A program made the position numbers and the translations under genes. Positions 20,169 to 31,925 of a stretch of DNA of 37,625 nucleotides are shown piece after piece. Under the pieces are notes generated by a model. That model worked only from the letters and a program-made list of their open reading frames with translations. It was not told where the DNA came from and did not search any database. Position 1 is the first letter of the stretch. The number at the start of each line of letters is the position of its first letter. Source of the stretch: an uncultured Chitinophagales bacterium (GTDB taxonomy: Bacteria; Bacteroidota; Bacteroidia; Chitinophagales; JAHDHT01); the NCBI GenBank assembly GCA_938023075.1, contig CALHDG010000149.1, positions 1 to 37,625 on the forward strand. Reading direction: 5' to 3'.

Positions 20169-20198
20169 AAAGCCAGGTCATTTGATCTGGCTTTTTTT
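20169..20198 (+). terminator. Rho-independent terminator after the TPR lipoprotein gene
   Basis: AAAGCCAGGTC (20169-20179) pairs with GATCTGGCTTT (20184-20194), one G-U wobble, loop ATTT, with the T-run continuing to 20198. Confidence 0.9.
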
Positions 20199-20215
20199 AT
20201 AGGATTTCAGATTAG

Positions 20216-20246
20216 TTGAGTATCTCACTGTGAATGACTATCTTTA
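20216..20246 (+). promoter_or_regulatory. Promoter for the small protein/NTase-dioxygenase unit
   Basis: TTG at 20216-20218, a 20-bp spacer, then TATCTTTA at 20239-20246, close to TTG-N(19-20)-TAnnTTTG. It lies just upstream of the ATG at 20251, which decides against the GTG start at 20230 because that codon would lie inside the promoter. Confidence 0.5.
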
Positions 20247-20250
20247 TGTG

Positions 20251-20454
20251 ATGGAAAAAAAATTGATTAGACAGCCACGCTTTGCCGGTAAATTTGAAGA
20301 TCACGAAAAATTTGAAACAGAAGCATGGATCAATCAACCAGACATTGTCAAGTTAAGTTGGCCCATATATTTTCATTTACTCAATCAAGGGGTTGACCCT
20401 GAAACGTGGCGTTTTAAACGGGTTTTTCATAGTGCTAGAAAAAGAGAAGATTAA
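20251..20454 (+). CDS. Small protein upstream of the nucleotidyltransferase fusion
   Basis: The 67-residue protein begins MEKKLIRQPRFAGKFEDHEK and ends FKRVFHSARKRED. Small proteins of this form (opening KKL-R-PRFAG, ending R-R-KR) often precede, in my recollection of Bacteroidota genomes, a nucleotidyltransferase of the kind encoded next. The start is chosen by the promoter box upstream. The stop is 28 bp before the next ATG, so the genes are probably co-transcribed. It may be a partner protein of the transferase; function is not established. Confidence 0.65.
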   Translation: MEKKLIRQPRFAGKFEDHEKFETEAWINQPDIVKLSWPIYFHLLNQGVDPETWRFKRVFHSARKRED

Positions 20455-20482: not shown

Positions 20483-21892
20483 ATGAGTAATATATTTAAT
20501 AATGATTTTTTAGATTATATCCAACTACTCAATAAATACAATGTTGAATACGTATTGATTGGTGGTATGGCAGTAAACCTACACGGCTATCAACGAAGTA
20601 CGGGGGATATGGATTTATTTGTAAACCCAATCTTAGAAAATCATCAAAAATTAACAAAAGTACATATTGAATATCGTATGCCCATGGGCGAAATGGAATT
20701 GGCTGCTAACTTTCTAAATACAACTACTTATGATGTCTTTTCTTTTGGAGGAGGGTTTTATAAAATTGAATTGTTAACTGCTTGCAGGGGCTTAAATTTT
20801 GAGGAAACGTTTCAAAACGCTGTCACTAAAAAAATTGAAGGTATTGAAGTAATTTATGTTAGTTATCCATATTTAATTAAGGCAAAAAAAGCCAGTGGAA
20901 GATCAAAAGATTTAAATGATGTTCTTGAGTTGGAAAAAATAAATAAACGACAACAGCAAAACAATTTTAAATTACCAATCACTGAAAAAGAAATATCTAA
21001 GTGGACGAACTTACCAGTTTATGCGCCAATTTATTGCGCGTCTTTAAATGATTTGGATATTGATTCTGATAAGTTTGTAAATTTTTACACCAATTGTTTT
21101 AAACACATGCCTTGGGATTTTTATGACGTTAAACGCAAACAATGGGAAGTGCTACCGGCAAAACTTAAAGTGGATAAAGAAGACATCTTCAAAAAATATT
21201 ATTTGCAAGATGATGCTCAAGTAGACAATTTTATCCAACATTTTGAATTGAGCCAAAAAACTATAAACGAACTAAAAAACATACAGCCTTGGAGAAGACG
21301 ATCAGTCTGTACTTTTCAATTAACCTTGCAACAAGCTATCAACATTAAAAGAATACCAACCGATAATTTTGAACAAAGTTTAGATGCGGCTGATATTCGA
21401 TCCTTGCCCAGAGTTTTTCAGGAAACGGATACCGATTTAGTTGAGCAAGAGTTGTTTTATGATTTTTTACGTAAGATTGCTTTGTATGCCCAAAAAGTTA
21501 CGCCACACGTTGCTATCAAACAGTTAAAAATTGCTGCTCATTTTATGAGTGTAAAAGCACGCAAAGCTGTACCGGGCAACAACTCGCCGGAAGGTGCGCA
21601 TGAAGATGGTGCTGATTTTATCGTCTCAGCTTTAGTGATTAATCGAAAAAACATTTCAGGAGCAAAAAGTCAGGTGATTGAAAAAATGCCAAATGGTGAC
21701 ATGGTTACCCTTTTAGACTATGCCCTACAGCCTGGTGAATTTTTGTTTCAAGCAGATACCGGAGAAGAAAAACATTATGGTAACGATTTGTGGCATTACG
21801 TTACGCCTTTTTATGTTAAAGATGAACAAACCGAAGCCTGCCGCGACATTGTTGGTTTAGATATTTCGATTGTTGAACCAAACCTATTTTAA
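20483..21892 (+). CDS. Nucleotidyltransferase fused to 2OG-Fe(II) dioxygenase
   Basis: The product is 469 residues from the ATG at 20483 (an in-frame ATG at 20393 would overlap the upstream gene). Residues 1-157 form an AbiEii/MNT-like nucleotidyltransferase: VEYVLIGGMAVNLHGYQRST then GDMDLFV (D42, D44), ending with the usual KASGRSKDLNDVLELEK. Residues about 162-469 look like a complete 2OG-Fe dioxygenase family protein (PF10014): SPEGAHEDGADF gives the HxD pair (H373, D375), DLWHYVTPF the second His (H438), and CRDIVGLDI the 2OG-binding Arg (R454). There is no stop and no start codon at the junction. It may be a true bifunctional enzyme or a recent fusion of two adjacent genes. Confidence 0.8.
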   Translation: MSNIFNNDFLDYIQLLNKYNVEYVLIGGMAVNLHGYQRSTGDMDLFVNPILENHQKLTKVHIEYRMPMGEMELAANFLNTTTYDVFSFGGGFYKIELLTACRGLNFEETFQNAVTKKIEGIEVIYVSYPYLIKAKKASGRSKDLNDVLELEKINKRQQQNNFKLPITEKEISKWTNLPVYAPIYCASLNDLDIDSDKFVNFYTNCFKHMPWDFYDVKRKQWEVLPAKLKVDKEDIFKKYYLQDDAQVDNFIQHFELSQKTINELKNIQPWRRRSVCTFQLTLQQAINIKRIPTDNFEQSLDAADIRSLPRVFQETDTDLVEQELFYDFLRKIALYAQKVTPHVAIKQLKIAAHFMSVKARKAVPGNNSPEGAHEDGADFIVSALVINRKNISGAKSQVIEKMPNGDMVTLLDYALQPGEFLFQADTGEEKHYGNDLWHYVTPFYVKDEQTEACRDIVGLDISIVEPNLF

Positions 21893-23826: not shown

Positions 23827-25191
23827 TTATTCTCTTTTGTATTCCTTAACAACCAAAGGCGTAGTTAAAGGCACAATCCAATTATTATTAAACACATTAT
23901 ACCGCTGCTTCGATAAGTCTACGTCGGGATCGATGAGTACTTGCTTTTCGCGTCCATTTAAGCTGGCTTTTACATCAGCATAAACAGAGAGATCTTTGTT
24001 GCCTTTGCGGTTATATGTTTTGGCTAAGTGGTGCGCGTATTGTAAAATCATATCGGGTCGTGTACTCATTTTCCGGTATTGCCGTTTAGAGAGTTTTTTA
24101 CGTGGATCTATTTTGGTGACTTTTTTGGTTTCGTTATTTACTATGCTAAACCTTGCTTTAGCAGATTTTTGCCGCAGCTTCATATGCCAAGCATAGCGAT
24201 GGCCTTCTTCTGTCCAATTGGCATTACCGGGTATAGCATAATGGCGCAATGGATACATACATTGAATGAGAAAATACACCACAAAGCCATAGGTAAGAAT
24301 GTTTTTATATGTTGTGGAAAAAGCCAAGGTAGTAGTTGCTGTTATGTTATGGTCTGTTGTTTGAAACCAACTTAAAACACGCCTTACCCAATTGGGGTTA
24401 AAAAAAATAGTGGTAGCAGCCATCATAAACCATGGAAAAATACCGATCTTAAATAAATTGGCATTAAGAAAATGAAACGTGCAAATAACAATAAAGGCTG
24501 ACATTCTGGTTTTCTTCCAAAATAAAAAAGGAACGATTAACAGATCTAACAATAAACCACCGTAAGAAAAAAAGTAGGCTGCAACGGACAGTGTGAAAAA
24601 TTGACCGATTAATGGAATATCTGTTACATCTAATAACCAATCGCGCATGGGTTCGCCTTTAAGCCAATCGGCATTGAGTTTTGCTACACCACTGTAAAAA
24701 TAAGCTACTCCAATTTGTAGTTGCAAAACCAAAATTGCCCAATAGGGAACGGTTTCGGAAGCGACCCCTTTAAATAATTTGGCATCCAAAGAATATTTAG
24801 CGTGGGCAGGTAACCAAATTAAAATAAAACTTAGGAGGGAGATTAAGTAAAAATGATTGAGATAATTGGATTTATCTAACAAAAAAACATAAGTAAAACC
24901 CAAAAAGAAAAGTATAGTGCTTGCCCGGTAAAACAAACCCAAAGCAATGAAGATTGCCAATACCCCTAAGGCAAAAAAATGGATGTACATAAAGTTATCA
25001 GGCCAAGGAGAAACCCAATGAAAATAACCGTAGCTAAAGTAGAATTCTGGTTCAATCCAATAGCGTTCTATCCAGCCGTAATAAAAATATCGGCAGACCT
25101 CCCAAGTCATTATGCAACCAAAGGCGATACGAAAAAAAGACAAAGACGAGGAATCTTTGTCTTTAAACAATATGTTTTGTAACGTGTTCAA
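23827..25191 (-). CDS. HTTM/vitamin K-dependent gamma-carboxylase-like membrane protein
   Basis: The 454-residue protein has the carboxylase-type layout: several membrane helices in residues about 15-330, with LLDKSNYLNHFY (residues 105-115) and YFYSGVAKLNADWLKGEPM (165-182). The Lys171 of KLNADW aligns with the catalytic Lys region of human GGCX. The C-terminal soluble domain has PGNANWTEEGHRYAWHM and DMILQYAHHLAKTY, also typical. Bacterial homologues are widespread but their substrates, and whether they use vitamin K, are mostly unknown. No propeptide-bearing substrate is visible nearby. Confidence 0.88.
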   Translation of the reverse strand: MNTLQNILFKDKDSSSLSFFRIAFGCIMTWEVCRYFYYGWIERYWIEPEFYFSYGYFHWVSPWPDNFMYIHFFALGVLAIFIALGLFYRASTILFFLGFTYVFLLDKSNYLNHFYLISLLSFILIWLPAHAKYSLDAKLFKGVASETVPYWAILVLQLQIGVAYFYSGVAKLNADWLKGEPMRDWLLDVTDIPLIGQFFTLSVAAYFFSYGGLLLDLLIVPFLFWKKTRMSAFIVICTFHFLNANLFKIGIFPWFMMAATTIFFNPNWVRRVLSWFQTTDHNITATTTLAFSTTYKNILTYGFVVYFLIQCMYPLRHYAIPGNANWTEEGHRYAWHMKLRQKSAKARFSIVNNETKKVTKIDPRKKLSKRQYRKMSTRPDMILQYAHHLAKTYNRKGNKDLSVYADVKASLNGREKQVLIDPDVDLSKQRYNVFNNNWIVPLTTPLVVKEYKRE

Positions 25192-30006: not shown

Positions 30007-30648
30007 TTAGGACGTAAAAATGGTTTTAAAAAACAAGGGCATTTGTGAAGTGCCACTATTGGGGTTTTCAAAACTAAATTTTTTGATAGCAGTAGCATGT
30101 TTTAGAGCAGTATTTACGTGCGGCTTTAGTTTTGAATAAATATCATTGTTTCGCTTGACATAGAATTGCCGAGTTTTCTCATAACCAGATAAATATTTTT
30201 TGGTGTTCAAAAGTTTTTCAACTGGTTCACATTTTTGAAATAATTTGTTGGTTTGTTCAAAATGCAATAGAAACCAAAACTCCAAACAGGGGTTATTTAT
30301 GATGAACACCATCTTCTTCTTCAATTCTTCATTTTTCTGAACTTCAATTTCATACTTTATCAATTTCTGAAGTGATGTTTCAGCACCCTTTTTTGATTTT
30401 TTAGTTTCACTCAACACAACATCTAAATCGATGATCCAGAAAACTTTGGTATAATCTTCAGCAAGCACTTTTGCCATCTTAAATTGATCTTCCAGTTTTT
30501 TCTTCACAGGTAGTTTCGGTTCAATATTAATGTTTAAATTTCGTTCGTTACGCTTCAACATTTGCAAATACCAAAATTCGGTTTTGCCTTCAACCACAAT
30601 TGCATAAACGGGTTTACTCTTTCGCAGCTTTTTTCTTCGCCTACTCAT
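30007..30648 (-). CDS. RloB family TOPRIM-like protein
   Basis: The 213-residue protein matches the RloB family: a basic start (RRRKKLRKSK), IVVEGKTEFWYLQML with E20, the acidic pair in FWIIDLDVVL (D74, D76), and the diagnostic NNPCLEFWFLLHF (118-130). The last is the strongest mark. RloB proteins are TOPRIM-fold proteins usually encoded beside an ATPase and linked to restriction loci and to the AbiL abortive-infection system. Its ATG lies two bases after the stop of the ATPase gene, so the pair is co-translated. Nuclease activity is inferred, not shown. Confidence 0.9.
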   Translation of the reverse strand: MSRRRKKLRKSKPVYAIVVEGKTEFWYLQMLKRNERNLNINIEPKLPVKKKLEDQFKMAKVLAEDYTKVFWIIDLDVVLSETKKSKKGAETSLQKLIKYEIEVQKNEELKKKMVFIINNPCLEFWFLLHFEQTNKLFQKCEPVEKLLNTKKYLSGYEKTRQFYVKRNNDIYSKLKPHVNTALKHATAIKKFSFENPNSGTSQMPLFFKTIFTS

Positions 30649-30650
30649 TT

Positions 30651-31925
30651 CTACAGATCAATATAGTAATCTCCTAAATTAGGTACTCCACCTAATTTGC
30701 CACTTTTGTAAGCATTTAAGCGGTTGGTGGTATCCCTTATAACTGAAGAATCAAAATCAGCTAATGAATATAATTCGGTAGCGCAGTCTGGGTTGTTTTT
30801 ATCAGTTATCCAAATAGCATCGTCTCTAAAAATGTCTTTGTTATTTAAGATTTCACGATTATGGGTTGTAGCAAGTATTTGAGAATTATTGGAGTTCATC
30901 AAAAAGGTCGTTAATATATGTAGATATAAATCCGGATGAAGTGCTAATTCTAATTCATCAATTAGTAATAAGCTATATTGTGGAGTGCTAACTAATAACC
31001 ATAAATAGAATGATAAATCAAGAACTCTTAGCGTACCGTTCGACTGTAATTCTGAAGGAAGGGTAAATTTTTTGTTTCCTACTTTATGTTCAAATTCGAT
31101 GTGATAATGTTCTTCAAGTATTTTTTTATCGATTTTTTTTGTGTGATTAATTAATTGAAGGTTTTTTTCTAAAGGTACGTTATACAAATTAGAAATATTG
31201 AAATCCGCTTTTTGTAAAATGCTCAGCATAAAATTTTTGCTGTCCTTATCTTCTACTGCATCCTTTAGATACTGAAAATAATCTTGATTATTAAAAAGTA
31301 ATTGATGCTCAATACTATAAGGCAAATTAGCAAACCAATCAATCACTTCTTTTAATTCTCCTAAATCAATATTTGTTTTTAAAAATCCTCCGAAAACCGT
31401 ATTATTCCATAATGTATTAGATTCCAATGTCTTTTTAAAGGTCTTATCAATTTTTAGTTTATCCCCGAACTTTATTTCAGTAAATTGATTTTTTATATCC
31501 GACTTTCTATTAAAAATAATTGTCTTTTTAGGATCATATTTAATTAAAGACTCATTTACAATAGCTTTCTTAAAAAAGACAATTTCATAATAATATCTAA
31601 TGCCGTTTTGGATGAATTCAATAGAGATGTAACTGTTTGAATTTGGAGTATTTTCATCAAAAAGAAAAGGATTAAAATCTAACTCATCAGTCTTTTTTTC
31701 TTTAGGAAATAATACAATTGTAATCAAAAAATGTAATACATGCAAAACAGTCGTCTTCCCTGAAGCATTCGCCCCATATATCAAACCCAATTTTAACAAG
31801 CGATGGCCAGTTTCTGTTTTAATAACATAAATATCTTCTAAATGAGTTGATTTATCTGCTTCAAAAGATAAGGTCTGCTTATCTTTTATTGAACCAAAAT
31901 TTTGAACACTAAAGTTGATGATCAT
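30651..31925 (-). CDS. AAA/ABC-type ATPase partner of RloB (RloA/AbiLi-like)
   Basis: The 424-residue protein has an SMC/ABC-like ATPase layout: IINFSVQNFGSIKDKQTLSF at the N-terminus, Walker A GANASGKTT (51-59), an ABC-signature-like LQSNGTLR (293-300), Walker B LLLIDELE (319-326) with the LHP D-loop, and the H-motif TTHNREIL (353-360). The middle region (about 75-280) is helical/beta and variable. It belongs to the AAA_15/AAA_21-type ATPases encoded in many phage defence modules with a TOPRIM partner. Sensing a phage signal and activating RloB is the likely mode, by analogy. Its own promoter must lie in the divergent spacer shared with mnmG. Confidence 0.9.
   Translation of the reverse strand: MIINFSVQNFGSIKDKQTLSFEADKSTHLEDIYVIKTETGHRLLKLGLIYGANASGKTTVLHVLHFLITIVLFPKEKKTDELDFNPFLFDENTPNSNSYISIEFIQNGIRYYYEIVFFKKAIVNESLIKYDPKKTIIFNRKSDIKNQFTEIKFGDKLKIDKTFKKTLESNTLWNNTVFGGFLKTNIDLGELKEVIDWFANLPYSIEHQLLFNNQDYFQYLKDAVEDKDSKNFMLSILQKADFNISNLYNVPLEKNLQLINHTKKIDKKILEEHYHIEFEHKVGNKKFTLPSELQSNGTLRVLDLSFYLWLLVSTPQYSLLLIDELELALHPDLYLHILTTFLMNSNNSQILATTHNREILNNKDIFRDDAIWITDKNNPDCATELYSLADFDSSVIRDTTNRLNAYKSGKLGGVPNLGDYYIDL

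Follow-up and report, generated by a model that had tools for sequence, protein, structure and literature searches.

MenAT1 of M. tuberculosis (PDB 8AN4/8AN5) couples the nucleotidyltransferase (NTase) toxin MenT1 to MenA1, an antitoxin of 68 aa (PMC10435456). MenT1-type NTases target the 3' ends of tRNA (PMC10435456), and when the antitoxin is bound, the Thr located two residues before the first Asp of MenT1 is autophosphorylated and the toxin is thereby silenced (PMC11375011). NTases are also found in type IV toxin-antitoxin systems, as AbiEii/DUF1814 proteins. The PF10014 (BsmA) enzymes, represented by IDO of B. thuringiensis, HilB, HrmJ, and BelL, hydroxylate free amino acids (PMC3684760), and proteins of this family differ greatly in their N- and C-terminal domains (PMC13336071). 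A literature search returned nothing on the function of DUF6036/DUF2204, no NT-dioxygenase fusion, and no description of a dioxygenase-methyltransferase pair.

The locus described here combines an NT domain with a PF10014-type dioxygenase in one reading frame. It shares with MenAT1 the NT fold, and a small ORF directly upstream is a candidate counterpart of MenA1 by place and size, but it differs in that the NT carries a fused dioxygenase and that the small ORF has no sequence kinship to the partner of its family. Its likeness to the AbiEii proteins is a weak profile match (PADLOC AbiEii, E=0.012) that does not reach the cut-off, and an AbiEi-like HTH antitoxin is not encoded upstream. The known PF10014 enzymes share the fold and the Fe and 2OG ligands with the window protein, whereas identity is only ~20% and the window protein has an additional helical N-terminal extension of about 105 aa.

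RESULTS

Domain layout of the frame

The window, meaning the whole stretch of DNA that was analyzed, is the entire contig C149 (37,625 bases) of a 6.1-Mb genome in 288 contigs that is 97% complete and 0.08% contaminated. Translation of positions 20483-21892 on the forward strand gave a stop-free ORF of 469 aa (511 aa from stop to stop), which was split into the NT (residues 1-157) and the dioxygenase (residues 158-469). The features of the region are as follows.

20169..20203, + strand: terminator-like (intrinsic) hairpin with an 11-pair stem and a T tail, 3' of the upstream TPR gene
20251..20454, + strand: 67-aa ORF from the ORF list, candidate small partner by place and size
20483..20953, + strand: NT domain, residues 1-157, AbiEii/MenT-like, PF09970/PF19502 (Pfam, relatives, structure search)
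20930..20974, + strand: junction and linker, residues 150-164, LEKINKRQQQNNFKL, with TTG at 20930 (translation, alignment, model)
20934..20939, + strand: run of six A at the junction (sequence)
20975..21289, + strand: N-terminal helical extension of the dioxygenase, ~105 aa, outside the Pfam core (alignment, model)
21290..21892, + strand: PF10014 2OG-Fe(II) dioxygenase core, with its stop codon at 21890-21892 (Pfam, alignment, fold search)

The Pfam matches in the fusion protein were PF09970 at residues 11-162 and PF19502 at residues 16-151 (DUF2204/DUF6036 nucleotidyltransferase), and PF10014 at residues 270-457 (E=7e-25), the last with 88 bits against a gathering score of 23.1. Together with the invariant columns of both halves given below, these matches bear out the proposal of the earlier note that two complete domains with intact catalytic residues lie in one frame. 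In a model of the full chain, which that note had advised, both domains were folded and the last NT helix continued into the linker (residues 141-160); the pTM of 0.64 leaves the orientation of the domains open. The hairpin separates the TPR gene from the small ORF and the fusion, and is weak by count, with 1 found versus 1.3 expected in shuffles. In the only other genome of the family, the contig breaks off just past its copy of the TPR gene.

Two further loci were observed on the minus strand of the window. At 30007-31925 lies a two-gene phage defense candidate, consisting of an AAA_21 ATPase resembling AbiLi (E=3e-67) and a partner resembling AbiLii (E=5e-19), and at 23827-25191 a single bacterial protein combines HTTM with a vitamin K-dependent gamma-carboxylase lumenal domain.

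The nucleotidyltransferase half

Every column that is invariant among 14 standalone NT relatives was kept in the window NT, these residues being G27-G28, H34-G35, R38, T40, D42-x-D44, K135, R140, D143, and D146. The NTase motif is present as G27G28 and D42xD44, followed downstream by K135 and K142-D143xxD146. The relatives are about 150-160 aa in length and end at or soon after the 'KDLNDIExL' segment. The NT had been proposed to end at SGRxKDLND, and this junction point was right, as the relatives stop at about 'SGRxKDLNDIExL'.

Among solved structures, the NT was matched best by MenT1 as bound in MenAT1 (8AN5 chain B), with E=7.8e-5, a TM of 0.60 by target length, and only 19% identity over the aligned part. 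The Pfam AbiEii family PF08843 was not reached by the window NT, for which only PF09970 and PF19502 were matched, while five members of the NT family gave weak matches to PF08843 (E<0.1, best 3e-4). The suggested AbiEii/MenT-type kinship is supported by these five matches and by the structural match to MenT1. Within the T-x-D-x-D motif, T40-x-D42 of the window protein has the same spacing as T39-x-D41 of MenT1, the two having been compared by spacing and not by alignment (PMC10435456, PMC11375011). Because this T40-x-D42 is invariant in the NT family and has the MenT1 spacing, a control like the autophosphorylation of the MenT1 Thr is possible for T40. A HEPN-MNT (type VII) pair was rejected because Pfam found no HEPN match in the adjacent ORFs and the upstream ORF has just 67 aa.

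The small upstream ORF

The small ORF ends 28 nt upstream of the NT start, and a GTG start at 20230 would extend it to 74 aa. Most NT relatives have a conserved ORF of 60-72 aa directly upstream, typically overlapping by 1-8 nt. The 67-residue protein, which had been taken for a likely partner, scored -0.8 bits against a profile of 17 such partner proteins, and 228 of 500 shuffles were as good; left-out true members scored 31-106 bits. Since its score was no better than that of its own shuffles, membership in the partner family is not supported. No convincing relative was found in 299 genomes, a candidate at L133 having been rejected as an out-of-frame chance match, and its role as a partner is consequently left without support. 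The ORF may be a rapidly evolved partner or a replacement, or no gene at all.

The NT loci L006-L009 and L040-L055 revealed a pair that is widespread in Bacteroidota, in which a protein of 60-72 aa and an NT are encoded in overlapping frames; Pfam has no family for the small protein. This pair looks like an uncharacterized MenAT1-like toxin-antitoxin family.

The dioxygenase half and its usual neighbor

The iron ligands H373-x-D375 and H438 and the 2OG-binding R454 were kept and are invariant in 31 sequences (30 relatives and the window). The dioxygenase was modeled with a pLDDT of 90 and was assigned to the IDO/HrmJ/BelL class, with a further match to a BsmA homologue; the fold matched 6LNH, 9DQ0, and 8JMS at E around 1e-12. 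The HilB profile gave a score of 16 against a cut-off of 350. Residues 164-269 form a helical extension common to all close dioxygenase relatives, which are ~310 aa in length and begin at the equivalent of residue ~160-164, 'LPITEKEIS'.

A profile scan of 84,980 species yielded 33 dioxygenase loci (labeled L032/L034/L057-L087), mostly from Saprospiraceae MAGs. At 22 of these 33, the dioxygenase is adjoined by a SAM methyltransferase gene of ~294 aa, nearly always tail-to-tail, which by weak Pfam matches is KsgA/PRMT-like. The usual partner of the dioxygenase, missed in the earlier note, is this methyltransferase gene rather than an NT. The window genome keeps the methyltransferase (G000:C152:7341-8219, 66% identical) without a dioxygenase beside it. 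In the set of 100 relatives, strong matches to the methyltransferase coincide with the dioxygenase in G000, G065, and G085 only, a co-occurrence that is suggestive given the small sample, two of the three genomes belonging to one genus. The tree groups the window dioxygenase with eight sister rows, and seven of these adjoin a methyltransferase. Because its sister rows are mostly methyltransferase-adjacent and the methyltransferase is kept on C152, the simplest reading of the fused, displaced state of the window dioxygenase is that it is derived. The presence of a methyltransferase as partner suggests that the pathway handles small molecules or peptides.

Two side observations concern the dioxygenase family. 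At L057:2049-2222, about 1.8 kb upstream of a full dioxygenase gene, the 5' end of the gene occurs a second time in truncated form, as a frame of 58 aa with about 52% identity to the window protein. A standalone relative with 31% identity (L131:2935-3852) lies on a 76-kb IMG/VR viral contig, which also holds a ribonucleotide-reductase-like gene, judged by eye.

A second fusion of the dioxygenase

In Saprospiraceae MAG-187 (L034/L060), a dioxygenase of the same subfamily follows an AHSA1 domain (PF08327) in one frame, joined at the same point.

L034:1042-2421 (= within L060:3497-4918): AHSA1-dioxygenase fusion, PF08327

The N-terminal domain of this protein, ~150 aa, is an unrelated one, and the methyltransferase is still a neighbor, unlike in the window. 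By the tree and the loci, its nearest kin, L057-L059, are unfused. As AHSA1 is joined at the same point, it is deduced from these sequences that the N terminus of the dioxygenase subfamily is fused at least twice, independently. The chain in the window is better explained by an N terminus that tolerates passenger domains than by a special NT-hydroxylase chemistry. A candidate two-gene module of COG3832 (Aha1 family) and ArsR has been listed (PMC2701414), but the gene just upstream of the AHSA1 fusion is an unrelated one.

Occurrence of the joint

Searches with the whole chain covered three overlapping genome sets, namely 100 relatives, 398 members of the order, and 395 members of the phylum, amounting with a profile search to about 1,100 distinct genomes of the phylum. 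The single match spanning residues 1-469 was the window itself (G000), so that the search for other fused proteins proposed in the earlier note produced none. No NT was found near any of the 33 dioxygenase loci from the 84,980 species, and in G065, where both families are present, they are on different contigs. The joint is private to the window genome among those searched. The coupling in one chain had been called unusual; this stands in that the architecture occurs in one genome only, but not in the sense of a recurrent system, as its parts lie apart in relatives. A recurrent NT-dioxygenase fusion was rejected in the absence of a second case in the genome searches or the 33 loci. A phage or plasmid origin of the joint was likewise rejected, as no phage match was obtained and plasmids carry separate halves only, mostly NTs.

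The junction

Between the usual NT end and the usual dioxygenase start there are about 13 stop-free codons. At this composition, two adjacent genes would share a frame across an open linker of 13 codons with a chance of about 0.12, and frame continuity alone is therefore weak evidence. To this evidence is added the missing start codon of the dioxygenase: most dioxygenase relatives have an ATG just before 'LPITEKEIS', whereas in the window the dioxygenase frame has no ATG before codon 209. The only common in-frame start near the joint is the TTG at 20930 (codon 150). Directly behind the run of six A, each of the other two frames meets a TAA, frame +1 at 20940 and frame +2 at 20944, so that a single base decides between fused and separate genes, and the fusion could be a one-base artifact.

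DISCUSSION

The locus is probably a lineage-specific gene fusion in which each half would retain its ancestral chemistry. It is proposed that a mobile NT module of the two-gene type, as in MenAT1 or AbiE, landed immediately upstream of a dioxygenase gene of the PF10014 type, which had earlier left its usual place beside the SAM methyltransferase, and that loss of the NT stop and the dioxygenase start then gave one chain of 469 aa. The NT half would transfer nucleotides to RNA or protein, perhaps restrained by the small protein encoded upstream, and the dioxygenase half would hydroxylate an amino-acid-like small molecule, sharing a pathway with the methyltransferase whose gene lies elsewhere in the genome. 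The linkage would then matter mainly for shared expression and stoichiometry rather than for coupling the two activities into a new reaction. The fusion is seen in one genome, on one contig, and caution is due above all because an error of one base in the length of the A run would split the ORF.

That very error, or slippage, is the first alternative to be weighed, and it is considered unlikely. If the DNA or some of the transcripts had one more A, two ordinary overlapping neighbor genes would result, as NT and dioxygenase are separate genes in all relatives. The NT would stop just beyond the A run, a few residues past its usual end, giving about 154 aa as in relatives, and the dioxygenase would start in an overlapping frame, frame +1 having ATG-ATG at 20916/20919 and being closed only by the TAA at 20940. 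This ATG-ATG, however, stems from conserved Asn-Asp codons and may be there by chance; a run of six A would be short for an error if the assembly is from short reads, and the genome scores 97% for completeness and 0.08% for contamination. One A fewer, conversely, would leave the dioxygenase without a common start codon near its beginning.

It is decidedly unlikely that the sequence is correct and that the TTG at 20930 serves as an additional, or the main, start of the dioxygenase, yielding free enzyme besides the fusion. Such a start at codon 150 would give a dioxygenase of 320 aa, near the family length, and the relatives L072, L087, and L088 have TTG and no ATG in a like place, just before 'KLP'. 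Nevertheless, the TTG sits within the codons of the last NT helix, and ATG is used by most relatives.

Degeneration of the NT half into an inactive N-terminal tail is thought very unlikely. At sites that other members conserve, the window NT has M in place of Y29 and F in place of P92, and it carries an insertion of one residue near residue 73; the upstream ORF, too, is unlike the family partner. Yet all of the columns invariant in the relatives are kept. We regard as highly doubtful a bifunctional enzyme in which the MenT-like NT and the amino-acid-type hydroxylase share a target or cross-regulate each other, for example by control of an NTase toxin through 2OG and O2, and in whose pathway the methyltransferase is the third component. 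Least likely is a functionally coupled bifunctional enzyme whose halves would share a substrate, for example a tRNA-linked or free amino acid that undergoes both nucleotidylation and hydroxylation. In its favor are the intact active sites of both halves, the action of MenT1-type NTases on the 3' ends of tRNA (PMC10435456), and the hydroxylation of free amino acids by PF10014 enzymes (PMC3684760), but the pairing recurs in no relative, the conserved association of the dioxygenase is with the methyltransferase, and a relative's dioxygenase is fused to the unrelated AHSA1 domain.

Returning to the lineage-specific fusion, the NT-dioxygenase chain, if real, is a new domain architecture from two known families in one genome, and would show that the N terminus of the dioxygenase subfamily tolerates fusions, with the NT as the added domain here and AHSA1 in one of the relatives. 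Of greater use is a by-product of the analysis, the dioxygenase-methyltransferase pair, which points to a so far undescribed pathway of hydroxylation and methylation in Saprospiraceae-like bacteria.
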